Positions 2,975 through 63,404 of a stretch of 64,000 bases of DNA are shown piece after piece. This stretch comes from Spirosoma sp. SC4-14 (GTDB taxonomy: Bacteria > Bacteroidota > Bacteroidia > Cytophagales > Spirosomataceae): the NCBI RefSeq assembly GCF_037201965.1, contig NZ_CP147518.1:5573001-5637000 (forward strand), in the 5' to 3' direction. Made by a program: the position numbers and the translations under genes. Within the stretch, counting starts at the first letter, position 1. Each line of letters opens with the position of its first letter. Below the pieces are notes generated by a model. That model saw only the letters and a list, made by a program, of their open reading frames with translations, searched no databases and was not told where the DNA came from.

Positions 2975-3457
2975 AGGTTTCTGGTTTATCGTCTCTGGTT
3001 TATGGTTTGGTACTCAATTTCATCCTCGCTCATAAACTTTACACCTTTATAGGAAGATTCTCCCCAATATATCATTAGACTAATCAGCTTCTTGGTTATT
3101 TTATCAGCGTCTTCATAAAGGGCATTACAAAAATGCTCATTTATATGCTTTCTATCGTAAGCGCGGTAAAGTTGAGGCTTAACTTCAGAAACTGAGCCTA
3201 AAGAAAAGCCTAAAAACTGTTTAAACTCTGCACGGCTCCCGCGCCCGAATCCTTCGGCGATATTATCCATTACCGATCCGCTGGAGCCATTTATCTGGTT
3301 TTTAAGTTCAAATTCTTTTGAAAAAGCCCCAGTTTGCGTAAGTTCATAAACCTGGCCCGATAGCATTCTTGCATCCTGCCACACTGTCAACTCTTCAAAC
3401 CGTTGAATAGTCGCCATGGCAGGAACAATAAACGATAAACCAAAAACGATAAACCTT
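2975..3457. repeat. Inverted word repeats flanking the S23 gene
   Basis: Left arm 2975-3010 and right arm 3424-3457 are inverted relative to each other and built from GGTTTATCGT and GGTTTATGGTTT-like words in different order. The left arm runs into the 3' end of the S23 gene, encoding its last residues (QTINQRR) and stop. The right arm abuts the stop codon of the upstream GMC gene. The arrangement looks like a cassette inserted between the two dehydrogenase genes: a stem with an ORF in its loop. No target-site duplication was identified. Confidence 0.6.
2986..3417 (-). CDS. Four helix bundle protein (S23/IVP family)
   Basis: A 143-residue all-helical protein. The start (FEELTVWQDARMLSGQVYELT) and the conserved core (LKNQINGSSGSVMDNIAEGFGRGSRAEFKQFLGFSLGSVSE, quoted in pieces here as QINGSSGSVMDNIAEGFGRG and EFKQFLGFSLGS) identify the family of ORFs first found in intervening sequences of 23S rRNA; related proteins (Avd) accompany diversity-generating retroelements. 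Biochemical function of stand-alone members is not established. The gene sits between the two subunits of a GMC dehydrogenase, inside repeat arms, and its C-terminus and stop are written by the repeat. This suggests a mobile cassette rather than a dehydrogenase component. Confidence 0.9.
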   Translation of the reverse strand: MATIQRFEELTVWQDARMLSGQVYELTQTGAFSKEFELKNQINGSSGSVMDNIAEGFGRGSRAEFKQFLGFSLGSVSEVKPQLYRAYDRKHINEHFCNALYEDADKITKKLISLMIYWGESSYKGVKFMSEDEIEYQTINQRR

Positions 3458-5201
3458 AAATATTCTTCTTCTTAACCTGATCAATTAAATATTCCGACGT
3501 ACGCATCGAACTGGCCAGAATGGTCCAGGTAACGTTTTTATCGCCCTGCGACGGGAATGGCGCGGCATCGACCACAAACAGGTTCTTCACATCGTGTGCC
3601 TGCTGGTATTTATTCAAAGCCGAAGACTTCGGATCGTTACCCATCCGAACGGTGCCCACTTCGTGAATAATTTTACCGGGTGCCTCCAGGCCATAATTAT
3701 TCTCAGGACCAGGCTTGTTGCCTAAGGCAATACCGCCCATCGAATGAATTATTTCTTCGAAGGTATCCTGCATGTGCTTGGCCTGCTTCACTTCATAGTC
3801 CGACCATTTGTAATGGAACCGAAGCACCGGAATTCCGTATTTATCAACCACATTAGGGTCAATTTCGCAGTAGTTGCTTTCCATTGGCACCGGCTCTCCC
3901 CGACCGGCCATACCAACATAGGCACCATAGAACCGGCGGTAATCGTCTTTCAGACCGGCACCATAGCCGCCAGCCGGTTTCATTTTACCATCGCGACCCG
4001 GAATCATGCCATTCAGTGCTTCAACTCCCCAGCCAAAACCGTAGGCAGGCATACCCATGCCACCCCAGTATTCGATGTGATACCCACGCGGGAAATCGAG
4101 CTTTTTGTTGTCGAGCCACCAGGGTGTAAACACGTGCATTCCACCTACGCCATCTTCGTTGTAGCGCTTCCGGTCCATCAGAGCCGGAACAAATGCCGAA
4201 CGACTGGCACCAGTGGAGTCATTAATATATTTACCAATAACACCGCTGGTGTTAGCCAATCCCGTTGAGAATCGAGCCGATTTGGAGTTGAGTAACAACC
4301 GGGCCGTTTCGCCAGCACTAGCCGCCAGCACAACCGTTTTTGCCATCACTGTTTTCTCCTGCAACGACAGCGTATCCACGTAGCTTACGCCAGTTGCCAG
4401 TCCTGTTGCCGGGTCGGTCATAACTTCGCGTACCATGGCACCATTAATCAGCGTTACGTTGCCCGTTTTGAGGGCCGGTTTTACCAATACCGACGACGAC
4501 GAAAAATCGGCATAAGCCTGACACGCCCGTCCGCACTGGCTACAATAAAAACACTGGCCACGCTCATCATTAATGGGTTTGGTCAGAATCGACAACCGCG
4601 ACGGAATAACCGGAATACCAATGCTCCTCGCTCCTTTTCGAATCATCAGCTCGTGTAGGCGCGGTTTTGGCGGAGGCAGAAAAATACCATCGGGTTCAGA
4701 AGGCATGTTTTCTACCGATCCGAATACGCCAATCAATTTATCGACCCGATCGTAGAAAGGCTTCAGGTCGTCGTAACCAATCGGCCAGTCTTCACCCACT
4801 CCCGTCATACTTTTACGACGAAAATCGTCAGGTGCAAACCGGAGCGAAATCCGCCCCCAGTGGTTGGTGCGCCCACCGAGCATCCGCGACCGGAACCAGT
4901 GAAATTCGGTCCCTTTCACCGTTGTGTATGGCTCGCCTTCGATATCCCACCCCCCCCAGGCCGCATCGAAATCACCAAAAGCACGGGTTGTTCCGGCACC
5001 ACGCCGGGGCGACTCCCAGGGCCATTTCAACTGCGTAATATACTTAGGGTCAGCAGGATCGAAGTATCCTCCAGCTTCCAGCAACACAACTTTCGCTCCG
5101 GCTTTGGCAAGCATGTAGGCGGCCATACCACCACCTGCGCCTGAGCCTACAATAGCGACGTCATACTGTGCCGGGGCTTTTTTAATCTGAAAGGAGTCCA
5201 T
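3456..5201 (-). CDS. GMC family oxidoreductase, large subunit
   Basis: A 581-residue FAD-dependent dehydrogenase. The FAD-binding turn is VGSGAGGG near residues 18-25 with LLEAGG at the end of the second strand. The C-terminal signatures HEVGTVRMGNDP and VVDAAPFPSQGDKNVTWTIL belong to the glucose-methanol-choline family. A cysteine cluster CFYCSQCGRAC lies near residue 215, as in bacterial dehydrogenases of this subgroup. It has no signal peptide and is probably carried to the periplasm with its Tat-tagged small subunit. Substrate is likely a sugar, sugar acid or alcohol. Its stop codon touches the right repeat arm of the S23 cassette. Confidence 0.93.
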   Translation of the reverse strand: MDSFQIKKAPAQYDVAIVGSGAGGGMAAYMLAKAGAKVVLLEAGGYFDPADPKYITQLKWPWESPRRGAGTTRAFGDFDAAWGGWDIEGEPYTTVKGTEFHWFRSRMLGGRTNHWGRISLRFAPDDFRRKSMTGVGEDWPIGYDDLKPFYDRVDKLIGVFGSVENMPSEPDGIFLPPPKPRLHELMIRKGARSIGIPVIPSRLSILTKPINDERGQCFYCSQCGRACQAYADFSSSSVLVKPALKTGNVTLINGAMVREVMTDPATGLATGVSYVDTLSLQEKTVMAKTVVLAASAGETARLLLNSKSARFSTGLANTSGVIGKYINDSTGASRSAFVPALMDRKRYNEDGVGGMHVFTPWWLDNKKLDFPRGYHIEYWGGMGMPAYGFGWGVEALNGMIPGRDGKMKPAGGYGAGLKDDYRRFYGAYVGMAGRGEPVPMESNYCEIDPNVVDKYGIPVLRFHYKWSDYEVKQAKHMQDTFEEIIHSMGGIALGNKPGPENNYGLEAPGKIIHEVGTVRMGNDPKSSALNKYQQAHDVKNLFVVDAAPFPSQGDKNVTWTILASSMRTSEYLIDQVKKKNI

Positions 5202-5302
5202 GTAAAAAAGTTGAGGTTATTAATTATGTACTCTACGAAAACAGCCTAAATATACGAGGTAAAGAGAGAAAACGGCCATTATTACCCATCAGTAGGTTAG
5301 GC

Positions 5303-7273
5303 TCAGTCGAACAGATACCAGTCGACTCCAAACGCAAAGCCACGTCGCATGGCCAGATAATCGGGGGCCACAAAATAGCCGGGCTGAAATACCCCCTGAT
5401 TGGCATGGGTTAATTTCACAAACAGCCGGGTTCGATTGACCCGAAAATTGGCGTAAAGATCGGCCAGCACATAGCCTTCTACCTGCTGTTTATTCTGTAT
5501 ATAAAACTGCTGCGTTACGGGCATATAGGCATCTGCATAATATGGCGACTTATAATGCAGATCGATGCCAACCTGAATATATAATGCTTTGGCGTAGAGT
5601 AATTCGTACTGGAACTGGGCATTCATGAAAAATGGGGGTGTCCGCAACACATCCCTTCGGGACTGAACGGTGTAATAGGCCTGACCAGCCGCCAAAAACT
5701 TACCGACTTCCAGTTTGTAGCCTGTTCCTATTCGTAATACGCTAAACGAGCCATTAAGCTGCTGAACTACGGCATTGGTATCGAAATAGACATAATTACT
5801 GAGTAAGTAATAGTCCAGGCCGGGCTGAAGCAATAGCTTTTTATAACGAAGGTTCAACTTCCCAAACGCATGGTTGTAGCCCCGTAGATTGTAGTTATTT
5901 CGCCAGAAAAAAACGTCGCTTTGAAAGCGTTCCTGCAAAAGCGTTGGATTAGCCAATATCGACGAGTAGCCAGCCGTCAGAAACTTGCTGTTTAGTTGTC
6001 CTTCGAGCCGATACCCACCCCCTACCTGATATTCAACCTCGGCCGTTACCTGCGACAAGCTATCGGGAAAATAATAGCCTAACCAACCACCCAGAAATGT
6101 TTCGAACCGGCGTGTTTCGTATTCGTTTTCATTCGTTTCGGAGGTATTGTAACGCGTGTATTGGCCATATACCCGATTCCGCAGATAGGCCCGGTAATTG
6201 AATGCCGATTCGCCCCGTTTATAAATTCCTTTCAAACCAAACTGATTCTCCAGCAATCGGAAGCGCGCATCCTGATAGATATGCGATGTATCGCCCAGAA
6301 TAGCCGGATAAAACGTGTAGTTGAGCGACAGCGCATCGTCGTGATACGAATTTTTGTGCCGCTGGTAATCGAGTTTATGATACGCCTGAAACCCCTGATC
6401 CAGAATATATTGATGGTAAACATGCCAATCGTTACGAATCTCGTTCCCATGTGGCCCCTGCACGGTTGTCGATGTACTGACCAGTCTGGCATCGCCCGTG
6501 TAGGCATACAGGTTTGTACTACCATCGAGATTTGTTCCGGGTAAAACTCCCCCCTGCTCATCGAGGCTATGATTCATGTTGATGAAATGAGCCAGCAGCG
6601 TATACTTGTTGTTTTTGGAATGGTAGTTGGTATGCCCCAGAAATCCCCAGTTCTGCGCCAGAAGCTTTGTAGGATCATTAGCTCCGCTGGTTCCAAACTG
6701 CTTTTGTGACGTAAATCGTTGGGCATTGAAGCCTACATTCCAGCGCGGAGTAATGTTCTGCGCAAAATCGAATCGAAGAATATTCTGATTATGCCCCCCC
6801 AGTGCCAGATACATATCTGTAAAGGGCGACTTGGTGTCGAAATATTTTACCTGCATGGGCTGGTACGCATAGGGCGAAAACACATAGTAGCCCGTTTGGG
6901 CACCCAGTTGCTGGGGTTCCTGAATAAAAACGGGTTTCATGGGTGTACCCAGATTACCCAAATCCTGGTACATATTCAGGCTACGCTGCACATATAAAAA
7001 CCGGTGTACATCGTCCATGGTCGTATCCATGGTATAGAGTTTTTTCCGGTTATTGAACACATCCTCCTCCAGTATATACCGGGTTGTCCGGGGGCCATAA
7101 ATAACTTTGGTTGTATCGTCGATGCCCGTAAAGCCACTGCTTCCGGTCGAGCTACCTGGCCTTGTTGGTTGCCCAAACCCATTCGGTACCTGCAACCCAC
7201 CCGGAAACTGTTGTGCCTGAGCTGTGCCGATCAGGCACACGAGGAAGAAAAGAAAAAATACGCTTCGATTCAT
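5303..7273 (-). CDS. Putative porin (Porin_10-like)
   Basis: A 656-residue outer membrane protein. Residues 1-20 form a signal peptide ending AQAQ. The mature chain begins with a Pro/Gly/Ser-rich linker, then TTRYILEEDVFNNRKKLYTMDT and YQDLGNLGTPMKP-type sequence characteristic of the Bacteroidota putative porin family, and continues as alternating aromatic beta strands to a final aromatic residue pattern (FGVDWYLFD). It probably forms a beta barrel; the cargo is unknown. It lies 52 bases downstream of lpxK on the same strand, and may be transcribed with it. Confidence 0.9.
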   Translation of the reverse strand: MNRSVFFLFFLVCLIGTAQAQQFPGGLQVPNGFGQPTRPGSSTGSSGFTGIDDTTKVIYGPRTTRYILEEDVFNNRKKLYTMDTTMDDVHRFLYVQRSLNMYQDLGNLGTPMKPVFIQEPQQLGAQTGYYVFSPYAYQPMQVKYFDTKSPFTDMYLALGGHNQNILRFDFAQNITPRWNVGFNAQRFTSQKQFGTSGANDPTKLLAQNWGFLGHTNYHSKNNKYTLLAHFINMNHSLDEQGGVLPGTNLDGSTNLYAYTGDARLVSTSTTVQGPHGNEIRNDWHVYHQYILDQGFQAYHKLDYQRHKNSYHDDALSLNYTFYPAILGDTSHIYQDARFRLLENQFGLKGIYKRGESAFNYRAYLRNRVYGQYTRYNTSETNENEYETRRFETFLGGWLGYYFPDSLSQVTAEVEYQVGGGYRLEGQLNSKFLTAGYSSILANPTLLQERFQSDVFFWRNNYNLRGYNHAFGKLNLRYKKLLLQPGLDYYLLSNYVYFDTNAVVQQLNGSFSVLRIGTGYKLEVGKFLAAGQAYYTVQSRRDVLRTPPFFMNAQFQYELLYAKALYIQVGIDLHYKSPYYADAYMPVTQQFYIQNKQQVEGYVLADLYANFRVNRTRLFVKLTHANQGVFQPGYFVAPDYLAMRRGFAFGVDWYLFD

Positions 7274-7325
7274 TAAGTCAAAAGTACAGCAAAACCGCTA
7301 GATGCCCGGAATGTGGTAGTACTGA

Positions 7326-8381
7326 TTAACGTTTTTTAAAAGGAATCTCATCGACCAGTCGATCAAATTCAGTTTTGGAGTTGTCAAGAAACGCCATTTC
7401 AACGGGTAAATAATAGAGGGGTAGCCGGTTTAATTCGTCAGGTTTGAGCAACGCACTCAGTTTTACCCAATCTTTTTCGGTTGTCAGCAAGCTTTCGCCA
7501 GGCTGTAAAGCTGCCAGTAACTGATCGAGTTCAGAACGGGAATAGGCATAATGATCGGCAAACCGATGGTGCGTGCGCATCCGAAACGTTCGGGATACAT
7601 ACTGTTCCAGAGGATCGGCATTACCCAGGCCCGATACAAGCATTACCCGATCCAGATTGGCAAACACCCCCAAACCGGAAAACGGCACGGGGAAGCTATA
7701 CTGCAACCCGGCAAAAAATACAGGCGTTTCGGAGCGGGCGTAGACCCTTATCGACTCCCGGATGCGGTTCTGTTCAATGTCAGAAAGAGTTAAGGGGCAT
7801 TTCGTTACCACCACAGCATCGGCACGGCGAGCCCCATGACGGCGCTCACGTAAACGCCCGGCCGGAAACGGATGATCGGTATAAAAAGGGCGGTTATAGT
7901 CGGTAAGCAGCAGGTTGAACTGAGGCTTCACAGCCCGATGCTGAAAGGCATCATCGAGCAAGATTCGATTTGTTTCGGGATAACTCGCCAGAAGTTTCTG
8001 AATAGCCTCGGCTCTGCGTTCGCCAACGCAGATACGAACTGTTTGATTAAATTTGCGGAATAATTGGAGCGGCTCATCGCCAATTGTCGATGCGGAGTCC
8101 TGTTTGCTGGCAATTCGAAAACCTTTTGTATGCCGACCGTAACCCCGGCTGAGTGTTGCCGTCTCAAGGGGTACAGCCCGACCGGTAAACTGGTACCGTT
8201 TGATCAAATATTCAATCATAGGTGTTTTTCCGGTTCCACCAACCGTTAGATTGCCAACGGCGATTACGCATCGATCCGATTTATAGACAGCATATAAATC
8301 TCTATCGTACAACCAATTACGAATATCCGTAATCAAACCATAGATTCTACTGAATGGCAAGAGTAGTAATAAAGCGGCCAA
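7326..8381 (-). CDS. lpxK: Tetraacyldisaccharide 4'-kinase
   Basis: LpxK phosphorylates the 4' position of lipid A disaccharide at the inner face of the inner membrane. The 351-residue product begins with the short hydrophobic membrane segment (LLLLLPFSRIYGLITD), followed by NWLYDRDLY and the P-loop VGNLTVGGTGKTP at about residues 42-54. LLDDAFQHRAV and GRLRE further on are typical of the family. No ATG lies at the expected place; translation appears to begin at a TTG at 8381, since an in-frame stop lies about 40 bases upstream. A TAnnTTTG box stands at 8425-8432. Porin gene follows downstream. Confidence 0.93.
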   Translation of the reverse strand: MAALLLLLPFSRIYGLITDIRNWLYDRDLYAVYKSDRCVIAVGNLTVGGTGKTPMIEYLIKRYQFTGRAVPLETATLSRGYGRHTKGFRIASKQDSASTIGDEPLQLFRKFNQTVRICVGERRAEAIQKLLASYPETNRILLDDAFQHRAVKPQFNLLLTDYNRPFYTDHPFPAGRLRERRHGARRADAVVVTKCPLTLSDIEQNRIRESIRVYARSETPVFFAGLQYSFPVPFSGLGVFANLDRVMLVSGLGNADPLEQYVSRTFRMRTHHRFADHYAYSRSELDQLLAALQPGESLLTTEKDWVKLSALLKPDELNRLPLYYLPVEMAFLDNSKTEFDRLVDEIPFKKR

Positions 8382-8424
8382 TTGCTTCGCTAATAATTTC
8401 GTAACATTGACTTTATTGAGCTAT

Positions 8425-10518: not shown

Positions 10519-10522
10519 AGCG

Positions 10523-12212: not shown

Positions 12213-12683
12213 CTATCCTTGTGCTACCTTTGGTTTTCGGCCACGCGGCTTGCCTGTATAAACAGCTTTAGGTGCCTGATCGTTAAGCTGCAATTCATAT
12301 CCTTCTATTCCATCGCCAAAATCGAAGGGCTTAACCGTAAACAGATATTTAGTTCTCGTATAATCAATACCGTTGTTTTGTAGAATAAAAGGTAACGAAA
12401 CGCTATAGCTTTTAGCTGCCTTTTCCAGAACAAACGCACCATCCTGATCGTCGCCAGCAGGAACCAGATATAACGATTTAATTTTCCGTTTTCCTTCTTC
12501 AGCACCTATTTTAAACTTCGCATTGCTCGGGTCAAAGTCTAATTTAGCAATTGATTTCTGCGGAAAAACAAGCTTTCCTGCCGACGAGATATAGCCGGTA
12601 ATGGGGGTTGACTTTGTAACTTTTTTCTCTTTTGGCTTGCTGTTCTCCTGGGGCGAAAAGAACCGAATTTGAGTTGCTTTCAT
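12213..12683 (-). CDS. Conserved-looking protein with C-terminal AT-hook
   Basis: A 156-residue soluble protein of unrecognised family. The N-terminus (MKATQIRFFSPQENSKPKEK) is basic and low in order; the middle reads TPITGYISSAGKLVFPQKSI and KFKIGAEEGKRKIKSLYLVP, which suggests a small beta fold. The C-terminus KPRGRKPKV contains the GRKP/PRGR core of an AT-hook, a minor-groove DNA-binding motif. It may be a nucleoid-associated or regulatory protein. It is monocistronic, with its own terminator at 12144-12173. Confidence 0.72.
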   Translation of the reverse strand: MKATQIRFFSPQENSKPKEKKVTKSTPITGYISSAGKLVFPQKSIAKLDFDPSNAKFKIGAEEGKRKIKSLYLVPAGDDQDGAFVLEKAAKSYSVSLPFILQNNGIDYTRTKYLFTVKPFDFGDGIEGYELQLNDQAPKAVYTGKPRGRKPKVAQG

Positions 12684-16447: not shown

Positions 16448-16491
16448 TTAGTCATTTGTTATTGGGAATCAAGCCAATGGCAAATGACTAA
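16448..16491 (+). terminator. Hairpin after aldo/keto reductase (word repeat)
   Basis: Arms TTAGTCATTTGTTATTGG (16448-16465) and CCAATGGCAAATGACTAA (16474-16491) match at 16 of 18 positions over an 8-base loop. No T-run follows. The TTAGTCATT/AATGACTAA words recur in other intergenic repeats of this window, so it may be a repeat element serving as a terminator. Confidence 0.6.
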
Positions 16492-16861: not shown

Positions 16862-16894
16862 AGACCTAAAAGGTTTTGGAAACCTTTTAGGTCT
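16862..16894. terminator. Perfect 15-bp hairpin (AGACCTAAAAGGTTT)
   Basis: Arms 16862-16876 and 16880-16894 are perfect reverse complements around a TGG loop. The AT-rich stem gives T-runs on both strands. It lies 80 bases after the small membrane gene, and is followed by AATGACTAATGAC words at 16929-16941. Confidence 0.7.
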
Positions 16895-20228: not shown

Positions 20229-20312
20229 GTAAGTTTTCAGTTTTCAGTGCTCCGCCATGTTTAGGTTTCCTGCTTCTGTGGAGCACTGAAAACTGAAAAC
20301 CGAAAACTTTAC
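20229..20312. repeat. Intergenic inverted word repeat inside efflux cassette 1
   Basis: Left arm 20229-20253 and right arm 20280-20312 share a perfect 21-bp stem (starting GGAGCACTGAAAACTGAAAA on the right). The right arm then carries an extra 7-base word CGAAAAC before rejoining the left-arm end. The loop is 26 bases. It fills nearly all of the tolC-rnd gap, which is one base long in cassette 2. Confidence 0.85.
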
Positions 20313-20317: not shown

Positions 20318-23300
20318 ATGTATAATATCATTCGATCTGCGTTGCGGAAGCCGATTTCGGTGGTGGTAGCCGTGCTTGGGTTGCTCTTCTTTTCCGTCAT
20401 GTCGCTGTTTACGATTCCGGTCGATATTTTCCCCAACCTCGATCTGCCCACCATCTATGTTGTGCAGCCCTATGGTGGTATGGCTCCAGACCAGATGGAC
20501 GGTTTTATTGCAACCCGCTATCAGGATCACTTCCTGTATGTGTCGGGCATTCGCGATGTCGACGTGAAAACCATACAGGGCCTATCGCTTATCAAACTCT
20601 CCTTTTATCCGGGTACCGATATGGCCCAGGCCGCTGCCGAAGTGGCCAACAACGTTTCCCGGGCAAAAGCCTATATGCCCGAAGGAACCGTACCTCCGCA
20701 GGTTGTTCGGTTCGATGCCAGTTCGGTTCCGGTTGGTCAGTTAGTCTTCGAAAGCCCCAGTCGCTCGTTGAACGAAATTCAGGATTTTGCTTCGTCGCGG
20801 GTGCGGCCCATGTTCTCCCGAATTCCGGGCGTATCCAGTCCTCCGCCCTTCGGAGGTAACCAGCGAACCATTGTTATCAAAGTGAACCCGCAACTGGTCC
20901 GCAGTTATCAACTTACTCCCGAAGAGGTTATCAAATCCATCGTCACCAACAATCAGCCATCGCCCGCCGGTAATATTCGTATTGGCGACAAAGCGTTGAT
21001 GACACCAGTGAACTCGCTGGTTAAACGCCCTGACGACTTCCTGAACATACCAATTCGGGTAGGCTCGGGCCCAACAGTCTTTGTGCGCGATATTGCTACA
21101 GTTGAAGATGGTGCCGACGTCACGGTGAGTTATGCTCTCATCAATGGTCGTCGGGCAGTTTATATTCCGGTGGTCAAAAAATCGGATGCCTCAACACTGG
21201 ATGTGGTTAGCAATATCCGGAAAGCTATGCCCGAATTACAGGCAGCGGTTCCTGAAGACATTAAAATCTCGTATGAATTCGATCAGTCGGTCTACGTAAC
21301 CAATGCCCTGAAAAGCCTCGTAACGGAAGGTATTCTGGGTGCTGTGCTAACGGGTCTGATGGTGCTGCTGTTTCTGCGCGACTGGCGCAGTGTAATTATT
21401 GTGGTCGTTACGATTCCCATTTCGATCCTGTCGGCAGTGATTATGCTCAACTTATGTGGGCAAACCATCAACATCATGACCCTATCGGGGCTGGCACTAG
21501 CCATCGGGATTCTGGTCGACCAGGCCACGGTAACGATTGAAAACATTCACCAGCATCTGGAAACGGGTAAACCCAAAGCCGTAGCCATCTGGGACGCCTG
21601 TAAGGAAATCGTCTTTCCCGAATTTCTGATTCTGCTGGCGATTCTGGCCGTTTTCGCCCCCGCGTTTGTGATGAGTGGCGTTCCCCGATCCATGTTTCTT
21701 CCGTTATCGCTATCGGTAGGTTTTGCCATGATTGCGTCGTTCCTGCTTTCGCAGACTTTTGTGCCGGTGCTGGCCAACTGGCTACTGAAAAGTCATCCCG
21801 AGCACGAAGCTCCCACGCTTGCTCTCGATGCACAGGAACGCCACGCCATTATTGATGACGCAGCCCATAAAAGCACCCACCCAACTGGTTTCGAAAAGTT
21901 TAAACAGCGGTATTCAACCCTTCTGGAAAACGTGCTGAATCGCCGGGGACTGGTTGTGGGGAGCTATCTGGCGGGCTCTCTGGCCTTGATTGTTGTTTGT
22001 TTTATGGTGATCGGTACCGACATTCTACCCCACGGCAATAGTCATCAGTTTCAGATGCGATTGCGGATTCCCGACGGAACACGCGTAGAACGCACCGAAC
22101 TGGCCACGCTGAAAGTGCTCGATATTATAAAGGATGAAGTTGGCGCCGAAAACGTAGAAATATCATCGGCTTACGTCGGCACCGTTCCATCCAGCTATGG
22201 AACCTCCAACATCTTTGTGTTCAATAGCGGCCCCCACGAAGCGGTGATGCAAGTCTCGCTGAACGAAGAGCATCCGGTAAAGATGGACGACCTGAAAGAG
22301 CAGTTGCGTACCCGCATTGCCAAAGCCCTGCCTAATGCCAATGTGTCGTTTGAGCCGATCGAGCTTACCGAAAAAATTATGAGCCAGGGCTCTGCAACGC
22401 CCATCGAAGTAACCGTTGCGGCCAAAGACCTGAAAGAAGCCGGACGGTTTGCGAACAAAATCCGTGAACAAATGGCCAAAATCGATTTCCTGCGCGATGT
22501 ACAGATTGCCCAGCCATTGGCGTATCCAGTTCTGAATGTAACCATGAACCGCGAACGGGCCGGACAACTGGGCGTTACGTCGACACAGGTAGCCCGGTCT
22601 ATGGTGGCAGCCACTTCGTCGAGCCGATTTACAGACAAAAATCTCTGGCTCGATGATGCCAAAGGACTCGCTTATCAGGTTCAGGTTCAAATTCCCGAAT
22701 ACCAGATGAGCAGCACCAACGACATCGGTAATATTCCGCTGAAAAGTGGAGCCATGCACCCACTGCTTTCTGATGTAGCAACGTTCTCCGAAGGAACTAC
22801 CCCCGGCGAATACGACCGCGCTGGCCCAAATCGACTGGTGACCATTACGGCCAACCTACAGAAAAAAGACCTCGGTACGGCCCAGAAAGCAGTAGAGCAG
22901 GCCATCCGGAATGCGGGCGAACCGCCCCGCGGTGTTATTGTTGAGATGGGTGGGCAGACCAGTCTGCTGACCGATACGCTGAGCAGTTTACAAACAGGGT
23001 TGCTGGTTGCCATTGTCATTATCTTCCTGTTGCTGGCTGCAAATTATCAGTCGTTTAAACTCTCGCTCGTGATTCTGTCGGCCATTCCGGCCGTAGTTGC
23101 CGGAGCGTTGCTGATGTTGCTGGCCTGTGGTGCCACGCTGAATCTGCAATCGTACATGGGATTAATCATGTCGGTGGGTGTATCGGTTGCCAATGCCATT
23201 CTGATGGTGACAAACGCAGAAAACTTGCGGCTGGATGTTGGCGATAGCCGCAAGGCCGTTGTGCTGGCAGCTAACAGCCGGATTCGGCCCATTCTTATGA

Positions 23301-28037: not shown

Positions 28038-28246
28038 AACGATCAAGTAACGGGAGGTAGGTTAATTGCTGCCAAAAATACGCAGTACTTCTTATTCATT
28101 GTGTACATAATACACCAATTGTTACTATATTTATTATATGGTATCTGCTTATCAGTAAAGGTTGGATTCATCACAAAGTTGCTGTGTTCTTAGGGTAAAA
28201 TGGCCCATAATTTGCAGGTTCTATTTTAAGCCAACCACCATTCTCC

Positions 28247-28777
28247 ATGCGTTTATTCATTCGCATCTGCACTACCCAGTTACGTAGCCGACCGGTTTCC
28301 CGTTTTTTGGGAATAGCTTGTTTTCTGCTATGCACTCAGAGCGCGTTTTCTCAACAGGTAAAAATGAAAGATCTGCTTACCTACATGAGCACTCCGCCAG
28401 CCCAGTTCGATCAGTACATGTTTCATAATAATTTTATATGCTACAAAAGCGAAGGGGGACTCACGGGGTGGACCTGTTTGTTTGCTTATTCGGGCAATAC
28501 GCTGCTGAACCGACCAACCGTGGCGTCATCTGTTATTCAATATGTTCGAACAAGCCGTTCAGACATACTGCTCTATCAGGTTCATTCTAAAGAACAATGC
28601 GAAGAATTGCAGAATGAGCTAATTCGCCTGGGCTATACTATTGACCCAACAGCCACAAAGCGACTAACCTACACCCAAAACAACACCGTTGTAACCTGCC
28701 AGAAAACCGATACAAACAACGGAATTTCAGGTAATTATTCGGGCTATACGCTCTCATTGGTAAGGCGCTGGTACTAA
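28247..28777 (+). CDS. Exported hypothetical protein
   Basis: A 176-residue protein. A basic N-region followed by FLGIACFLLCTQSAFSQ forms a signal peptide of about 35 residues. The mature part has four Cys residues in two regions (FICYKSEGG / WTCLF; KEQCEELQ; VVTCQKTD) that may form disulphides. No family recognised. A hairpin (28824-28853) separates it from the next lipoprotein gene. Confidence 0.72.
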   Translation: MRLFIRICTTQLRSRPVSRFLGIACFLLCTQSAFSQQVKMKDLLTYMSTPPAQFDQYMFHNNFICYKSEGGLTGWTCLFAYSGNTLLNRPTVASSVIQYVRTSRSDILLYQVHSKEQCEELQNELIRLGYTIDPTATKRLTYTQNNTVVTCQKTDTNNGISGNYSGYTLSLVRRWY

Positions 28778-42651: not shown

Positions 42652-42763
42652 GTATTGAGTTTACGGTTTTCAGTATTGGGTTTGTGGTTACGCTGCATTA
42701 GAAGAGCAACTGCTGCCAGGGGAAGCAACTATAAACCACAAACTGAAACCGTAAACCCAATAC
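42652..42763. repeat. Intergenic inverted word repeat (GTATTG...TGGTT)
   Basis: Left arm 42652-42690 and right arm 42731-42763 are inverted copies that differ mainly by one extra 7-base word TATTGGG in the left arm. The loop of 40 bases starts CGCTGCATTAG. It fills the gap between the cassette 2 adaptor and the outer membrane protein genes, both on the minus strand. Confidence 0.82.
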
Positions 42764-52060: not shown

Positions 52061-52145
52061 TTGTCAATGGTCATTGGCAATTAGTGATTGGTTATTAGTT
52101 ATTGGAGTATCTATTTTCTAATGAACAATCACTAACTAATGACAA
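52061..52145. repeat. Intergenic inverted word repeat between divergent genes
   Basis: Left arm about 52061-52098 and right arm 52118-52145 share TTAGTGATTG/CAATCACTAA and TTGTCA/TGACAA words, with extra GTCATTGG words in the left arm. The element lies just upstream of the M13 peptidase start and 87 bases before the DUF4920 promoter, so a terminator role is unlikely here. Confidence 0.7.
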
Positions 52146-55506: not shown

Positions 55507-55599
55507 GGTCATTAGCCTACGGCGTCATTGGGCACTGGTGATTAGTCATTATGAACTGCTTTTTTTTCTAATAACCAATGACGCCGTAGGCTAATGACC
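55507..55599. repeat. Perfect 25-bp inverted repeat, 43-base loop
   Basis: Arms 55507-55531 and 55575-55599 are perfect reverse complements, made of GGTCATTAGCC, TACGGCG and TCATTGG words. The loop contains further related words (GGTGATTAG, CTAATAACC) and a run of eight T. It lies between the hydrolase and uxaC genes, both on the minus strand. Confidence 0.92.
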
Positions 55600-57094: not shown

Positions 57095-57183
57095 GAGTGA
57101 ATCAGCGGTTGAGTGATTAACCTGTAGATTAGCCACATGACCCACTATAGAGCATATAGTATTCACTCAATCACTCAATAAAC
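57095..57183. repeat. Intergenic inverted word repeat (GAGTGATT)
   Basis: TTGAGTGATT on the left (57109-57118) and AATCACTCAA on the right (57169-57178) pair; GAGTGAAT/ATTCACTC words add further pairing. The right end reaches the stop codon of uxuA at 57183. It lies between uxuA and uxaC, both read on the minus strand. Confidence 0.7.
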
Positions 57184-58361
57184 TAGCTCAACAGCGCCAC
57201 CATCAGGCCGCGCAACTCGGCCAGTCCACGCAGCCGACCTATGGCCGTGTACCCCGGATTGGTTCGCTTACCCGATGTGAGGTCGTCGAGCATCCGGTGG
57301 CCGTGGTCGGGTCGGAAAGGCATCCGTAAATCATTCCGTCCTTCGGCTTCCCGTCGTTTGCGTTCGTTGAGCAATGCCCGCATCACCCCCACCATCGGCA
57401 CATTTCCTTCCAGATGGTTCGCTTCCTGAAAACTGCCGTCGGCAAACCGCTCGGTACTGCGCAGGTGAATAAAATGCATTTTATTCCCCAACCGTTCAAC
57501 CATTCCGACCAGGTCATTGTCGGCCCGAACGCCATAGGACCCCGTACAGAAACAGATACCATTGGCTGGCGAATCGGCCGCAGCCAGCAGCGCCCGGGCG
57601 TCGGCTTCGGTGCTTACTACCCGAGGGAGCCCCAGAATCGGATACGGCGGATCGTCGGGATGGATCGACAGTCGAACACCGACCGACTCGGCTACTGGAA
57701 CAATTTCGCGCAAAAACGCATATAGATTCTGCCGCAGCTCGCGGTCGCTGATGTCTTTATACGCATCCAAGGCGTCACGAAATTTCTCTACGGTATAGCT
57801 TTCTTCCGATCCTGGCAAGCCAGCTATAATGGTTCGGGTGAGCCGTTTAACATCTGCATCGCTCATTGAATCGAGCTTCACTTTAGCTGCTTTTTTCTGC
57901 TCATCGGTATAGAGATAATGAGCGCCAGGGCGTTGCAAAAGATAAAGCTCAAAGGCGGCAAACTCGGTAGCATCGAACCGAAGGCCGGTAGATCCATCGG
58001 GCATTGGGTAATCGAGATCCGTTCGGGTCCAGTCGAGAACAGGCATAAAGTTATAACAAACCGTATCGATGCCTGCCTGAGCCAGATTAACAATCGACTC
58101 CTTATAGTTTTCGATGTATCGCAGAAAGTCGCCCGAACGGGTTTTTATGCCTTCATGAACGGGTATACTTTCAACCACCGACCATGTCAGTCCAGTTTGT
58201 TCAATTTGTGTTTTTCGGGTTTTGATTTCATCGATAGGCCAAACGTCGCCATTCGGGATATGATGCAGCGCTGTTACGATGCCGGTAGCTCCGGCCTGTC
58301 GTACATCAGGCAGCGATACGGGGTCGTTAGGACCGAACCATCGCCAGGTTTGTTCAAGCAT
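57183..58361 (-). CDS. uxuA: Mannonate dehydratase
   Basis: UxuA dehydrates D-mannonate to 2-keto-3-deoxygluconate. The 392-residue product fits the family and starts [20 protein letters not shown], with [41 protein letters not shown] and [11 protein letters not shown], all typical of UxuA. It is the first gene of the minus-strand arm of the divergent hexuronate cluster; the MFS transporter reads the other way. Confidence 0.97.
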
Positions 58362-58371
58362 AGATTAACGA

Positions 58372-58446
58372 GTTAGAAATTGGTGGTTATCGTCGGGAAT
58401 TGGCTGCGAACTTACGACCAATCCTTAATTTCTAACCACCCGATTA
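58372..58446. repeat. Inverted word repeat in divergent promoter region
   Basis: GTTAGAAATT and GGTGGTTA on the left (58372-58390) correspond to AATTTCTAAC and CACC on the right (58427-58440) in shuffled order. It occupies the divergent region between uxuA (start 58361) and the MFS transporter (start 58514), where a terminator would be out of place. Confidence 0.65.
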
Positions 58447-58513
58447 GGTAAAAAAGCACTTCGGACTTCTTTTCTCCCCAACTAGCTACCACTGCTTTGG
58501 CAGTCCGATTGTT

Positions 58514-59875
58514 TTGCAAACACTCACAACACCCGGTCGTTTCCGCTGGCGAATTGTCGCGCTGCTGTTTCTGGCAACGACCATCAATTATATTGATCGG
58601 CAGGTACTTTCGTTTACCATGACCGACGATCTTTTCCGAAAAGAAATGCTTGGCCTGCCTCTCGATCAGGAACTGACCAAGGAGGCCATTGACCGATTCA
58701 AGATTTTGTATAGCGATGTTGATGCGGCCTTTAAATTCGCCTATGCTATTGGCTTTCTGCTAGTTGGCTGGTTAATTGACAAGATTGGTACCCGACGAGG
58801 TTTTGCACTGGGCATTATGGTATGGAGCATTGCGGCCACCCTAACAACGTTTGTTCAGAGTATTGTAGGGTTGCGGTGGACACGCGCCATCCTGGGCCTG
58901 GGCGAATCGGCTAATTTCCCGTCGTCGGTCAAAACCATATCAGAATGGTTTCCTCGCCGGGAGCGATCCTTTGCGCATGGGCTGTTCAATGCCGGAACCA
59001 ATGTAGGTATTATTCTGACAGCGCTGGTTATACCCTATCTGATTCTGCAACTAGGCTGGCGAAGCTCGTTCTTCCTGACTGGCGTTCTGGGCTTTGTGCT
59101 ACTGGGCTTCTGGTGGTTCACGTATAGCAAGCCGGAACGAAATACGAAAGTTTCGTCGGCAGAGCTGGCCTACATTCGTCGAGGGCAGGAAAAGCCGACT
59201 CCCATACGACCATCGTGGGGGCAACTACTGGGCTTTAAACAAACCTGGGCATTTGCCGTTGGTAAGTTCCTGGCCGATCCGATCTGGTGGTTTTACATGA
59301 CCTGGCTACCCGATTTTTTCAACTCAAACGATGCTCTTGATCAAAAACTCGACCTCAAGAGTTTTGGTCTTCCCTTTCTGATCATTTATGTTGTTTCCGA
59401 TGCGGGAAGCATATTTTTCGGCTGGCTCAGCACGCAGTTTATGAGCCTGGGCTGGTCGGCCAACCGGGCCCGTAAAACCACAATGTTAATCTGCGCCCTG
59501 TGCGTAGTACCCATATTTTTTGCCGCCCAAACCAACAGCCTGACCGTGGCCATTGGGCTCATTTCGCTGGCCACGGCGGCTCACCAGGGCTGGTCGGCTA
59601 ATATGTACACCTTTGCGTCGGATCTGTTTCCGCGTAACGTGGTGGCATCCGTTACAGGTATTGGCGGCATGTTTGGAGCGGTAGGCGGAATATTGCTGGC
59701 CCTGCTGTCGGGCCGAATCATAACGGCCTTCGGCTACTTACCGATGTTTATCATAACCAGCGGTGCTTACCTGACGGCCCTGATCATTATTCATTTAATT
59801 TTACCCAAATTAGATCCTGTAAAAGCCGAGGAACTGGAAAAAGCTGGTCATTGGGGCGTATTAAGTCCTAAATAA
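58514..59875 (+). CDS. MFS hexuronate transporter (ExuT-like)
   Basis: A 453-residue major facilitator with twelve predicted membrane segments. ATTINYIDRQVLSFTM is the family opening (anion:cation symporter), with GWLIDKIGTRRGFALG as motif A and ESANFPSSVKTISEWFPRRE. Adjacent uxuA, uxaC, kdgK and kdgA make glucuronate or galacturonate the likely cargo. No ATG is found at the expected place; translation appears to start at TTG 58514. Confidence 0.9.
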   Translation: MQTLTTPGRFRWRIVALLFLATTINYIDRQVLSFTMTDDLFRKEMLGLPLDQELTKEAIDRFKILYSDVDAAFKFAYAIGFLLVGWLIDKIGTRRGFALGIMVWSIAATLTTFVQSIVGLRWTRAILGLGESANFPSSVKTISEWFPRRERSFAHGLFNAGTNVGIILTALVIPYLILQLGWRSSFFLTGVLGFVLLGFWWFTYSKPERNTKVSSAELAYIRRGQEKPTPIRPSWGQLLGFKQTWAFAVGKFLADPIWWFYMTWLPDFFNSNDALDQKLDLKSFGLPFLIIYVVSDAGSIFFGWLSTQFMSLGWSANRARKTTMLICALCVVPIFFAAQTNSLTVAIGLISLATAAHQGWSANMYTFASDLFPRNVVASVTGIGGMFGAVGGILLALLSGRIITAFGYLPMFIITSGAYLTALIIIHLILPKLDPVKAEELEKAGHWGVLSPK

Positions 59876-59941
59876 ATACTACCCTATTTTTAACAGGATG
59901 CCTTAACTTGCCACTTTCTCATTTACCTTCTGTTATCATAA

Positions 59942-60934
59942 ATGAAAGTTATCACTTTCGGCGAAGTCATGCTCCGGCTTAGCCCTCCGGGGGTTGAACG
60001 TTTTATACAAACCAATTCACTAACGATGCACTTTGGCGGCACAGAAGCAAATGTTGCTGTGTCGCTGGCCCAATTAGGACTCAATACGGCCCACGTTACC
60101 CGTTTCCCCAATCACGCACTGGGGCGGTCGGCTGCGGGCTATCTGCGCCGGTATGGTGTAGGTACGCAGCATGTCAGCTATGGCGACGGGCGGCTGGGGC
60201 TGTATTTTCTCGAAATTGGTTCTGGAAGCCGGGCTAGCCAAATCGTTTACGACCGGGCCGACTCGGCGTTTGCCCGCATCAGCGACAATGATGTCGACTG
60301 GGATGCGGTTCTGGATGGGGCGTCGTGGTTCCACTGGACAGGCATTACGCCTGCTCTGTCGCAGGGCGCGGCAGATTGTTTGCTGGCAGGTATCAAAACA
60401 GCTAACCGGCTCGGAGTTCCGGTTTCGGGCGATATTGTTTACCGCAGCAATCTATGGCAATATGGCCGAACACCCCAGGAGATTATGCCAGCCATCACAG
60501 AAGGCTGTACACTCGTTTTGGGCAATAAGGCCCTGTTTTCTGAGCTGTATGGCGTGGTAGGCAGCACGTTTCAGGAGGCAGGCCGTGCTATGATGCAGCG
60601 ATTCCCCAATATTAAATACATCACCGACACAAAACGGAATTCCGTAAGCGCGTCGTACAACCAGCTATCGGCAAAAGTATTCGACGGAAACACAGTCTAT
60701 AAATCGAGAGTTTATGACATCCAGCCCATCATCGACCGCATTGGCACGGGCGATGCCTATATGGCCGGACTGATTTATGGGCTGCTGACGTTTCGGGACC
60801 CACAACGAGCCGTCGAATTTGGCGCAGCCGCTTCGGCGCTGAAACATACCATTCCCGGCGATGTTAACCTGGCGACCGTTACAGAAATAGAAACCCTCGA
60901 AGCCGGAGACAGCTCCGGGAAATTGAGAAGATAA
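59942..60934 (+). CDS. kdgK: PfkB-family sugar kinase (KDG kinase)
   Basis: A 330-residue kinase of the PfkB/ribokinase family, phosphorylating 2-keto-3-deoxygluconate to KDPG. GGTEANVAVSLAQLG is the N-terminal substrate site and DRIGTGDAYMAGLIYG the C-terminal signature with catalytic Asp. In the third region the usual DxNYRxxLW reads GDIVYRSNLW, with Val at the Asn position. Second gene of the plus-strand arm; kdgA follows after a word repeat. Confidence 0.92.
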   Translation: MKVITFGEVMLRLSPPGVERFIQTNSLTMHFGGTEANVAVSLAQLGLNTAHVTRFPNHALGRSAAGYLRRYGVGTQHVSYGDGRLGLYFLEIGSGSRASQIVYDRADSAFARISDNDVDWDAVLDGASWFHWTGITPALSQGAADCLLAGIKTANRLGVPVSGDIVYRSNLWQYGRTPQEIMPAITEGCTLVLGNKALFSELYGVVGSTFQEAGRAMMQRFPNIKYITDTKRNSVSASYNQLSAKVFDGNTVYKSRVYDIQPIIDRIGTGDAYMAGLIYGLLTFRDPQRAVEFGAAASALKHTIPGDVNLATVTEIETLEAGDSSGKLRR

Positions 60935-60938
60935 ATTC

Positions 60939-61021
60939 GGTTTATGGTTTATAGTTTATGGTTGCTCCGCTCATTTAGGTCATGAATAGGCTGCGCAACC
61001 ATAAACCATAAACTACAAACC
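60939..61021. repeat. Intergenic inverted word repeat (GGTTTATGG)
   Basis: Arms 60939-60965 and 60995-61021 match at 24 of 27 positions, built from GGTTTATGG, TTTATAG and TTATGGTTGC words. The loop begins TCCGCTCATTTAGGT. It lies 4 bases after the kdgK stop, between codirectional kdgK and kdgA. Confidence 0.85.
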
Positions 61022-61038
61022 ATAAAACCCAAACACGA

Positions 61039-61701
61039 ATGGCTCGTATTTCACGACTAGCGCTTTATCAGACAATTAGGCAGGTACCACTGGTTCCCGT
61101 ATTTTACCACCCCGACGACGAAATTTGTATGGGCGTTCTGTCGGCCTGCTACCGGGCTGGTGTTCGCGCCTTTGAGTTTACCAATCGGGGCGATTTTGCC
61201 CACGAACGATTTGCAAACCTGAGCCGGATTTGCGCTTACGAATTTCCGGACCTGGCTCTTGGCGCAGGTACCATTCTCGATGGGCCAACGGCGGCTCTTT
61301 ATTTGCAACTCGGTGCCGATTTCATTGTTGGACCTACTTTCAACGAAGAAATTGCCCGGCTCTGCAACCGTCGAAAAGTAGCTTATATGCCCGGTTGTGC
61401 AACATTAACTGAAATCACTACGGCTCACGAATGGGGTGTTGAAATTGTAAAGGTTTTTCCGGGCGAAGTGCTGGGTCCAACCTTTGTTAAAAGTCTGAAA
61501 GGGCCACTTCCGTTTGCTACGGCCATGGTAACGGGCGGAGTAGAACCCAATCGGGAAAGCCTGTCAAAATGGTTTACGGCCGGTGCTGTTGCGGTTGGGA
61601 TGGGATCGCAGCTTTTCCCAAAAGATCTCTTGGCGAATCGTGCGTTCAATAAAATTGAGGAAACGGTTAGCGAGGTTATCCGTATTATTGCCGAATTATG
61701 A
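61039..61701 (+). CDS. kdgA: KDPG/KHG aldolase
   Basis: Cleaves 2-keto-3-deoxy-6-phosphogluconate to pyruvate and glyceraldehyde-3-phosphate, the end of the hexuronate route. At 220 residues it fits the Eda/KdgA class. Schiff-base Lys138 lies in EIVKVFPGEVLG, catalytic Glu46 in AFEFTNRG, and GAGTILDGPTA, MPGCATLTEI and VTGGVEPNRE are as expected. Downstream is uxaB. Confidence 0.95.
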   Translation: MARISRLALYQTIRQVPLVPVFYHPDDEICMGVLSACYRAGVRAFEFTNRGDFAHERFANLSRICAYEFPDLALGAGTILDGPTAALYLQLGADFIVGPTFNEEIARLCNRRKVAYMPGCATLTEITTAHEWGVEIVKVFPGEVLGPTFVKSLKGPLPFATAMVTGGVEPNRESLSKWFTAGAVAVGMGSQLFPKDLLANRAFNKIEETVSEVIRIIAEL

Positions 61702-61787
61702 AAAATGAACGATACATTTCATTTTTACACAATACTTAATGAATTTCTTATCTGATGATTGCAGAGAAGACTGCTGCCCACCCAACT

Positions 61788-63299
61788 ATGTCTAAACTAT
61801 CCCGCTCGACGAATCCCGCTCCTGCTTTGCCCGAAAAAATCCTCCAGTTCGGCACGGGTGTGCTGCTACGCGGCCTTCCCGATTATCTGGTCCAAAAAGC
61901 AAATTCAGAAGGACGGTTCAATGGTTCGATTGTTGTTGTCAAATCGACTGATAACCAGACTAACGAATTCTCGGATCAGGATAACCTGTATACGGTAGCT
62001 GTTCGGGGGGTTCGGCAAGGCAAGGAGGTAGCAGAAACAACTGTTGTGTCGGCAATTAGCCGCGTACTGGCGGCACAGACACAATGGAACGAAATTCTGC
62101 TCCTGGCCCGAAATCCTAAACTTCAGATCATTATCTCCAACACTACGGAAGTTGGTCTGAATTACACCGAAGAAAGTATTTTTCAACACCCCCCTCAGTC
62201 GTTTCCGGCTAAGCTCACGGCGTTTCTCTACGAACGTTTCCGTAGCGTTGGTGGCTCTAAAGCCAAGGGGCTGGTGGTGATTCCAACCGAACTCGTTACT
62301 GACAATGGGCTGAAGCTCCGCGAAGCAGTCGAGAAATTAGCCGCCTTCAATGAGCTAGGCAAACTGTTTACCAAATGGCTCAAATTCCACGTCCGCTTCT
62401 GTAATTCGCTGGTCGACCGGATTGTTACCCGCCCGACCGACGAGGCCAAGCAGGAACTGGAACAGGAACTGGGCTATGAAGACGATCTGCTGACGTTCAC
62501 TGAGCCTTATCATTTGTGGGCGATTGAAGGTGACGACCGCGTTAAACAAACACTTGAATTTGCCGGACCGGGCACTCCGCAGATTATTATCGACGAAGAC
62601 ATCAATTTCTACAAAGAGCGCAAGCTCCGCGTGCTGAACGGCACCCATACGCTCACCATGCCACTGGGCTATTTGCTGGGTCTCGAAACGGTGGCCGATG
62701 AGATGAAGCACCCAACGATGAGCAAGTTTGTCGAGTCGCTGATGCTCAATGAAATTGTGCCGACCGTACCAGACTATGGCATTCCGGGCATGGATAAAGC
62801 CGATGTTGCGCAATTTGCCCACGACGTTCTCGATCGCTTCAGTAATCCCTATCTCGATCATTTGCTACTGAACATTTCACTTCAGGAAACAGCTAAAATG
62901 CAGGCCCGGAACGTCGAAACCATTCAGCGCTATTATCAGCAGTTCAACGCCGTCCCGAAACTTATGTCGCTGGGCTTTGCTGCTTATCTGCTATTCATGA
63001 AAGCCATCCGGCAGGAAAATGGTCAGTTCTACGGTGAGATTTCGACAGGCGGGGGCGTTGTAACGTACCCCATCCGCGACGAACGTGCAGGCTATTTCTA
63101 CGGCGACTGGCAAACTGTGAAGGAAAACGACTATGCGTCGGTTCTGGCGTTCGTAAAAAGTGTTTTGTCCGACAAATCGCTCTGGCTAACCGACCTAACG
63201 GCCTTACCGGGTTTTATGGATGCTGTAGCCGAAAAACTCGATGCATTGCTGAAAGAAGGGGCCGAAACGGTTCTGAGTAAGGCATTGGAGAATGATTGA
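61788..63299 (+). CDS. uxaB: Tagaturonate reductase
   Basis: A 503-residue NAD-dependent long-chain mannitol-type dehydrogenase. UxaB reduces tagaturonate to altronate. ILQFGTGVLLRGLPDYLVQK, KSTDNQTNEF, ISNTTEVGLNY and VLNGTHTLTMPLGYL match UxaB. The ATG at 61788 (MSKLSRSTNPAP) matches family starts better than an ATG eleven codons upstream at 61755. The last residues END and the stop codon are encoded by the AATGATTGA repeat that follows. Altronate dehydratase (uxaA) is not seen in the window. Confidence 0.93.
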   Translation: MSKLSRSTNPAPALPEKILQFGTGVLLRGLPDYLVQKANSEGRFNGSIVVVKSTDNQTNEFSDQDNLYTVAVRGVRQGKEVAETTVVSAISRVLAAQTQWNEILLLARNPKLQIIISNTTEVGLNYTEESIFQHPPQSFPAKLTAFLYERFRSVGGSKAKGLVVIPTELVTDNGLKLREAVEKLAAFNELGKLFTKWLKFHVRFCNSLVDRIVTRPTDEAKQELEQELGYEDDLLTFTEPYHLWAIEGDDRVKQTLEFAGPGTPQIIIDEDINFYKERKLRVLNGTHTLTMPLGYLLGLETVADEMKHPTMSKFVESLMLNEIVPTVPDYGIPGMDKADVAQFAHDVLDRFSNPYLDHLLLNISLQETAKMQARNVETIQRYYQQFNAVPKLMSLGFAAYLLFMKAIRQENGQFYGEISTGGGVVTYPIRDERAGYFYGDWQTVKENDYASVLAFVKSVLSDKSLWLTDLTALPGFMDAVAEKLDALLKEGAETVLSKALEND

Positions 63300-63404
63300 A
63301 TTGTTGAATGATTGAATTGTTGAATGATTGAATTGTTGAATGATTGAATTGTTGAATAAGTAGCACACGCTCAATCATTCAACAATTCAATCATTCAATC
63401 ATTC
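63291..63404. repeat. Four 16-bp tandem repeats plus inverted copy
   Basis: AATGATTGAATTGTTG occurs four times in a row (63291-63354). After a 16-base spacer the complementary words follow at 63371-63404, with a 26-bp or longer perfect stem possible. The left end encodes the last residues and stop of uxaB; the right end encodes GMIE and the stop of the minus-strand phosphodiesterase gene. Confidence 0.92.

Follow-up and report, generated by a model that had tools for sequence, protein, structure and literature searches.

The DNA analysed here, called the window throughout, is a stretch of 64,000 nucleotides (nt) from Spirosoma sp. SC4-14 (Bacteroidota; Spirosomataceae; contig NZ_CP147518.1, positions 5,573,001 to 5,637,000), with a G+C content of 48% and lying within a genome of 8.1 Mb. 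Ten of its intergenic sites hold inverted repeats whose arms are built of short words (Table 1), and the longest of these hairpins encloses a gene for a 23S rRNA-intervening sequence protein (IVP, also known as S23), which suggests that the whole swarm of word-built hairpins belongs to a little-noticed class of mobile element. The IVP-bearing element reaches from the stop codon of a GMC oxidoreductase gene (3456-5201, minus strand) to the start of a gluconate 2-dehydrogenase subunit 3 gene (2317-2958, minus strand). It is not one short hairpin, as about 410 nt separate its arms and enclose the open reading frame (ORF). In another species of the genus (genome G024, locus L154) the same two genes are separated by 5 nt, compared with 497 nt here, and the window element is therefore placed exactly between stop and start codon. 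This empty site is present in L154 and was not found in 20 further stretches. Because it stands between two protein genes, the element is regarded as resembling an rRNA intervening sequence (IVS) without being one.

The arm-to-arm score of each window site was tested against 500 letter shuffles of that site's own sequence. All ten sites named in the original prediction hold inverted word repeats and eight of them exceed every shuffle (2975-3457, 20229, 42652, 52061, 55507, 60939, 63291 and 16448), while those at 57095 and 58372 are called weak because some shuffles reach their scores (Table 1). The place corresponding to 58372 is occupied in relatives by other, AGTNAGTN-like words, as judged by eye. 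By the orientation of their neighbouring genes, seven of the ten sites are codirectional, two divergent and one convergent. No known Rfam RNA was matched in the window at the gathering score; a search of 15 hairpin loci returned 26 matches, all below threshold and all but one of them (25) to microRNA precursors, as expected for any long hairpin.

Table 1. Inverted word repeats and the IVP gene in the window (a strand of '.' means none assigned).
Feature	Position	Strand	Basis
ORF-bearing IVS-like element, whole insertion	2959-3455	-	Empty site in G024; arms score 20, 0/500 shuffles
PF05635/TIGR02436 23S rRNA-intervening sequence protein (IVP, S23, four-helix bundle), in loop	2986-3417	-	Pfam E 2.8e-30; NCBIfam E 9e-28
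Arm of IVP element, words GTTTATC/GTTTATG	2976-3010	.	Flank comparison and shuffles
Opposite arm of IVP element	3424-3455	.	Flank comparison and shuffles
Short hairpin, TTAGTCATT	16448-16491	.	0/500 shuffles
ORF-less hairpin, word GTTTTCA, cap GTGCTCC, one more word in right arm	20229-20312	.	0/500 shuffles
ORF-less hairpin, arms GTATTGA/GTTTACG/GTTTTCA/GTTTGTG, word order equal on both sides, whole-word differences	42652-42763	.	0/500 shuffles
Hairpin, GTCATTA/TTAGTGA words, divergent neighbour genes	52061-52145	.	0/500 shuffles
Hairpin, perfect 25-nt arms, GTCATTA/GTCATTG words	55507-55599	.	0/500 shuffles; orthologous spacers compared
Weak inverted repeat, TTGAGTGA words	57095-57183	.	Matched by 11/500 shuffles
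Weak inverted repeat, divergent uxuA/MFS spacer	58372-58446	.	Matched by 15/500 shuffles
ORF-less GTTTAYG hairpin, GCTCCGC-type cap	60939-61026	.	One of 42 copies read
ORF-less hairpin, 8-nt words TTGAATGA/TTGAATTG, convergent neighbour genes	63291-63404	.	0/500 shuffles

The association of IVP genes with word arms extends beyond the window. Plasmids were searched by tblastn with the window IVP and one Nostoc relative, giving 20 and 31 records; 25 loci were fetched, duplicates and a few others being omitted, and together with the window they form a set of 26. Inverted flanking arms (E <= 1e-3) are present in 23 of these, one of which (L294) is just at the E limit; the words have a period of 7 in 18 loci and of 8 in four, and the 5' arm contains more G than C in all 23. 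The IVP gene is broken in L294, L295, L296 and L298, where the outer ends were set by eye. Among the control genes of 100-200 amino acids (aa) in this genome, arms of this kind flank none of 119, the IVP gene alone passing of 120, and when the right flank used in the control (180 nt) was applied to the first 15 IVP loci, 14 passed. A second control on small genes from two Nostoc plasmid regions yielded three passes among 46, all within 3 kb of an IVP gene and with the same words.

Insertion is indicated by further empty sites. Two Nostoc plasmids hold reciprocal empty sites in one operon, and a Calothrix plasmid has the empty site of an IVP copy associated with ribonucleotide reductase; at all four empty sites read, both the ORF and the arms are absent. 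Comparison by eye of these four sites revealed no target-site duplication longer than 3 nt, although the flanks have diverged and a short one could be missed. The Azospirillum copy (L286) lies inside 23S rRNA and is the sole fetched locus tested and confirmed in rRNA. No IVP relative was confirmed in viral contigs. Two observations on the Nostoc plasmid L300 stand by themselves: a hypothetical gene of 66 aa (22423-22623), possibly other cargo, lies between the same word arms as an IVP element, and two ORF-less word hairpins (12244-12437 and 28232-28390) have long loops that look alike by eye, suggesting a shared non-IVP loop sequence.

The ORF-less hairpins were surveyed in a genome sample consisting of the window and 40 spread 20-kb stretches (864 kb and 467 spacers under a simple longest-ORF gene call). 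Its spacers contain 159 inverted repeats, compared with a mean of 1.85 (maximum 4) across 20 dinucleotide shuffles, and 18 periodic ones, compared with none in the same number of shuffles; only the periodic count bears on the finding, because many of the 159 are ordinary terminators. The whole sample holds 31 periodic repeats, with periods of 7 (14), 8 (13), 9 (2), 11 (1) and 6 (1), the last being a masked run of N, so that 30 are usable. The 5' arm has more G than C in 27 of these, less in two and as much in one; the corresponding figures for non-periodic repeats are 66, 61 and 15. The 30 are not independent observations, since they fall into perhaps eight or nine word families by eye. A separate set of hairpins with CCCCAACCCCC/CCCCTAAAT (L044, L149 and L012 18076), dispersed in G024 and present in the genome of the window too, has a C-rich 5' arm.

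One word family was followed in detail by searching with the 60939 hairpin, which gave many dispersed matches; 42 distinct copies were fetched and read. Common to all are a core GGTTGC-NNN-GC (with variants), a loop that varies and a near-mirror core, around which GTTTAYG-like arm words vary in number and spelling, and GTTTAT words are common to these 42 ORF-less hairpins and the arms of the window IVP element. An arm matches its own partner better than the partners of other copies (23.5 versus 20.2; permutation standard deviation 0.55; reached in 0 of 5000 permutations), a mean shift and not a per-copy rule, because the own partner is the best match in seven of the 42 copies. Rare words are mirrored in order between the arms, for example in L135, L136, L123 and L138. 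It had been proposed that arms differ by whole words rather than by scattered changes, and this stands in part: when the two arms of each of the 42 copies are aligned, 7-nt gaps occur 12 times, against three of 6 nt and two of 8 nt, yet shorter gaps of 1-5 nt are more numerous still (74 in all), partly as alignment noise from the flanks. The query matches nine of 36 genomes of the genus, and the exact hairpin pattern is also present in Fibrisoma limi (Spirosomataceae), two Larkinella and two contigs of Desulfobacterales bacterium HSG2, which belongs to another phylum. HSG2 also carries a hairpin (L171, 2972-3279) with 124-nt arms of the hexamers TCTTTA/TCTTGC, in which the 5' arm is pyrimidine-rich, against the usual polarity.

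In relatives, a different core, the conserved GC-rich cap GGCTGACGC-loop-GCGTCAGCC, sits between arms of varied words, those of the GTTTAYG type included. The exact cap occurs in 23 of the 36 genomes of the genus, with a maximum of 26 copies in one, compared with 0 or 1 for a backwards control; in a wider sample of the phylum it was found in three of 395 genomes, all of the same family, one of which, from another genus, has 50 copies. A non-random set of 52 distinct capped loci was read, including 23 taken one per genome and 20 stretches chosen from G028. Their arms are written in AAGTCGT, GGAGTGA, GTAAGT, TTAGTCG, GTTTAYG and other words, and single linkage sorts them into 13 vocabulary clusters (of 34, six and two loci and ten singles), the largest being mainly GTTTAYG-like with other words too. 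As a rule, the arms nevertheless agree within a locus (own match 20.7, other 8.3, permutation maximum 11.1). The 5' arm has more G than C in 51 of the 52, with one tie; within 40 nt of the cap it contains 9-11% C and 24-31% G, and at 50-60 nt about 21% and 26%. Larkinella sp. C7 holds a fully capped GTTTAYG hairpin and, about 500 nt away, a hairpin with TGAAGAG arms whose loop has the left half of the cap only. The 46 cap matches in viral contigs were taken as chance among 2.9 million contigs, without each being checked, and were dropped; when they are kept (90 loci), the arm signal (own 14.5, other 6.2) and the polarity signal (65 with more G, 21 with less, four ties) are both weaker. A search of public plasmids for the capped hairpin returned no match. 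The gluconate 2-dehydrogenase subunit 3 gene of G024 has a capped word hairpin (L154, 713-781) close to its 3' end.

The hairpins are not placed without regard to transcription, as had been claimed: divergent spacers are avoided (3/73 versus 85/345, Fisher p = 2.5e-5), comprising 2/41 of the classified GTTTAYG copies and 1/32 of the classified capped loci. The baseline for this comparison is the spacers of at least 80 nt in this genome, and the classified capped loci come mostly from other genomes.

The hairpins turn over in some spacers. Orthologous spacers of the uronate operon were read in 20 relatives. Among 18 of these, 12 have 3-18 nt (hit to hit) at the place of the 55507 hairpin, and the other six have inverted repeats of different sequence there. 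Corresponding spacers of G028 and G024 contain hairpins with changed words or from different families, and two genomes 94% identical over the uronate region differ by the presence of an 85-nt hairpin from another, non-periodic family. A non-periodic hairpin family, observed in L079 (G001) and L049-L068 (G018), has a conserved CGTGCCACGGTT core and very different, well-paired outer arms, and includes one 85-nt insertion against an empty site. Orthologous spacers had been proposed as a check on the original prediction; in many cases they contain other words, hairpins of another family or no hairpin at all, and they do not refute it. Its suggestion of an expanding or mobile element agrees with the dispersed family and the insertions seen against empty sites.

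Where a hairpin is retained, its arms change in concert. Twenty-nine inverted repeats were compared with their orthologues; the 24 that survived the alignment filter supplied 488 aligned pairs and a further 55 that were gapped. Both sides of a pair have changed in 27 cases, compared with 5.9 expected, and 26 of these still pair; sliding the partner by 1-3 nt leaves one to three such pairs. The 24 scored double changes, drawn from all 29 repeats, comprise 16 transitions and eight transversions, several of them adjacent. The apex is inverted between orthologues in one of 14 comparable cases, a change that the excerpted text of PMC8604942 ascribes to template switching. A GC-rich inset, GGGCCGCC[CG]G[AG]GC, is mirrored in both arms of L160 (G029, 737-891) and is present in one arm only at L195 1484 (G029) and L179 1478. 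The concerted changes and the mirrored inset are best read as copying between the arms; matched changes would be favoured by selection for pairing as well, which hardly accounts for the inset. The proposal that arms are kept complementary by copying or conversion is thus borne out as to their complementarity and concerted change, while copying itself is the best reading, with selection as an alternative.

On balance, we consider it probable that the word-built hairpins are IVS-like mobile elements, most of them without an ORF. One class of element for the IVP-bearing and the ORF-less hairpins is the simplest account, and the ORF-less swarm would be derived from or moved by IVP elements, as suggested by shared architecture and vocabulary, no conversion having been seen. 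The shared vocabulary includes, besides the GTTTAT words, three ORF-less hairpins on the Nostoc plasmid pNsp_a that use the words of its IVP element (AGGAGTC/CAGAATT). An excess of G over C in the 5' arm is likewise common to the IVP loci, the capped loci and the periodic repeats of this genome. A full element would carry an IVP/S23 gene in the loop between inverted arms that repeat 7- or 8-nt words in tandem, and would insert into gene junctions or 23S rRNA. Most copies would be bare hairpins that have lost the ORF or never had it, with a GC-rich apex cap conserved in many species of the genus. Arm shape alone would matter: pairing would persist while slippage adds words and template switching inside the hairpin copies the sequence of one arm onto the other. 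In the transcript, RNase III probably cleaves the long double-stranded stem, by analogy with classical 23S rRNA IVSs, which would explain both the tolerance of the elements inside operons and their indifference to letters.

Several observations weigh against this interpretation. Paired arms are lacking in three of the 26 IVP loci, of which L278 and L295 have words on one side only and L297 has none, and in L276 the words adjoining the gene have a single orientation, with the inverted partner further out. Nor are the 25 plasmid loci fully independent, since one operon is common to L282, L296 and L299, and L290 and L291 are near identical. In the stretch read of the Nostoc plasmid pC052_D (L301), the words of the ORF-less hairpins differ from those of the IVP element. 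A single IVP gene was found in 2.76 Mb (overlaps included, mostly from this genus), compared with dozens of ORF-less hairpins, and no case was observed of an IVP element giving rise to an ORF-less copy. The capped copies may be a separate line, because a fixed cap and a short loop leave no room for an IVP gene. No moving enzyme was found. The G-over-C polarity has exceptions, in one of seven periodic repeats on L301 and two of three on L171. Pairing is imperfect in some capped loci, the own partner being best or tied in 35 of 52 and L202 and L205 being poorly paired, and several hairpins common to the closest pair of genomes (for example 95883, 97518 and 201064) differ by few or no ordinary changes. 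Finally, the co-change of arms is general to hairpins here, because the compared set includes terminators and other hairpin families, and is not special to word arms.

In an account that we regard as unlikely, two separate phenomena are involved: IVP elements make use of nearby word repeats, while ORF-less word hairpins arise on their own by slippage and template switching. Word hairpins do far outnumber IVP genes here, words without the exact cap are common, and template switching is reported in the excerpted text of PMC8794818 to create and maintain perfect stems. Such use of nearby repeats is harder to reconcile with the matched arms flanking 23 of the 26 IVP genes and with the disappearance of arms and ORF together at the four empty sites. 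Somewhat less likely again is that the hairpins are ordinary bidirectional terminators or mRNA-stabilizing 3' hairpins that arose at their present sites, compensatory selection preserving their pairing and the words being slippage noise. The avoidance of divergent spacers, the preponderance of transitions among the double changes and the fact that several shared hairpins in the arm-change comparison are terminators are all consistent with this; the homology of dispersed copies through loop and cap, the joining of different arm words by one cap across 23 genomes, the existence of empty sites and the mirrored inset of L160 speak against it.

A repetitive extragenic palindromic (REP)-like family moved by a Y1 (RAYT) transposase appears very improbable. 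REPs are described, in the parts of PMC3733652 available, as palindromic, high in copy number and located downstream of genes, being dispersed extragenic palindromes found mainly between codirectional or convergent genes, as are the hairpins here, and one Y1 gene is present in this genome. No word hairpin lies within the 3.3 kb examined at that gene, however, and no Y1 match was obtained in G029, G001 or G018, although G029 ranks second in GTTTAYG match rows and holds 17 exact caps. Because a hairpin-rich genome lacks it, the Y1 transposase is rejected as a general mover. Unlike REPs, moreover, the hairpins have tandem-word arms without a fixed sequence. An unpaired GTAG or CGTC foot at one end was not noticed when the 42 copies were inspected by eye. 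A miniature inverted-repeat transposable element (MITE) moved by a DDE transposase would have fixed terminal inverted repeats, and here the outer arm sequences differ between copies.

An IVS/S23-like element outside rRNA, with free words and ORF-less swarms, is thus the nearest known kind. The original prediction knew of no named element with this behaviour, but the 23S rRNA intervening sequence with an S23/IVP gene comes close. ORF-less IVSs are known. In the excerpted text of PMC4990558, the Coxiella IVS shares with the present element complementary hairpin ends, an IVP/S23 gene in the loop and a sporadic distribution; it also has tandem heptamers (GACAGAT) upstream of the ORF whose number varies between strains, and IVS hairpins in rRNA, one with an S23 ORF among them, are cut by RNase III. 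Unlike the rRNA IVS, the window element lies between protein genes, the words differ from locus to locus, and the ORF-less copies form swarms, many of them around a shared cap. The Avd protein of diversity-generating retroelements is a further comparison. PF05635 is described as resembling Avd in the part of PMC10053308 available, and IVP proteins score weakly with the Avd models (NF033474 in 7/10, PF22296 bAvd in 5/10, all below cut-off), but unlike Avd they belong to TIGR02436 (10/10).

Other known systems share single features with the hairpins. The TAACTGA heptamer arrays are likewise 7-nt words, mostly intergenic and present in Cyanobacteria, Bacteroidetes and sulfur bacteria (PMC4679880, in excerpt). 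They are mainly direct repeats of one word, with other heptamers and one indirect repeat mentioned there, as distinct from inverted arms of many words with a cap or an IVP gene in the loop; the excerpt states that no mechanism is evident and that indels between two strains occur mostly in 7-nt steps. The BrickBuilt MITE of Porphyromonas gingivalis (PMC4596501, in excerpt) is also a tandem repeat in a MITE of Bacteroidota and always intergenic, but it has a 23-nt unit and is described as repeats between small inverted ends rather than as mirrored arm words. Template-switch mutation, as presented in the excerpts of PMC8794818 and PMC8604942, predicts multi-base compensatory changes and apex inversion like those found here; it is a mutational process and not an element, and would here act on a mobile family.

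Two hairpin observations in the window lie outside the word-built family. A non-periodic hairpin with perfect 27-nt arms (2247-2307) is located directly downstream of the gluconate 2-dehydrogenase subunit 3 gene, and a second small palindrome family, AGACCTAAAAGGTTT-NNN-AAACCTTTTAGGTCT, whose copies co-vary in their outer bases, is represented in the window at 16862-16894 and elsewhere at L021 9697, L022 18442, L023 14459 and L025 130.

A broader and decidedly more tentative reading is that word hairpins and IVP/S23 genes in Bacteroidota, Cyanobacteriota, Proteobacteria and others form one shape-recognized mobile class, whose G-rich, C-poor arms might be written and rewritten by a polymerase, whether dedicated or borrowed; a reverse transcriptase acting with the Avd-like IVP is one possibility, and the ORF-less swarms would be the MITEs of this class. 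A reverse-transcriptase partner is thinkable because of the weak resemblance of IVP to Avd. Telomerase-like writing of the G-rich words was set aside as an idea drawn from the polarity, without direct support.

IVP/S23 genes are widespread and their function is unsettled, while the heptamer repeats of cyanobacterial and Bacteroidota genomes are a recognized puzzle, cyanobacterial short tandemly repeated repetitive sequences (STRRs) being another tandem heptamer type. None of the literature listings viewed, partly in excerpt, joins IVP/S23 genes to heptamer repeats, besides the Coxiella IVS heptamers (PMC4990558), and six of the arm words searched in the literature were not found. If a single element does underlie both, the role of the S23 protein and the origin of the word repeats would become testable together, and the hairpins would offer a natural case of paired DNA arms that are free to evolve and yet stay complementary.

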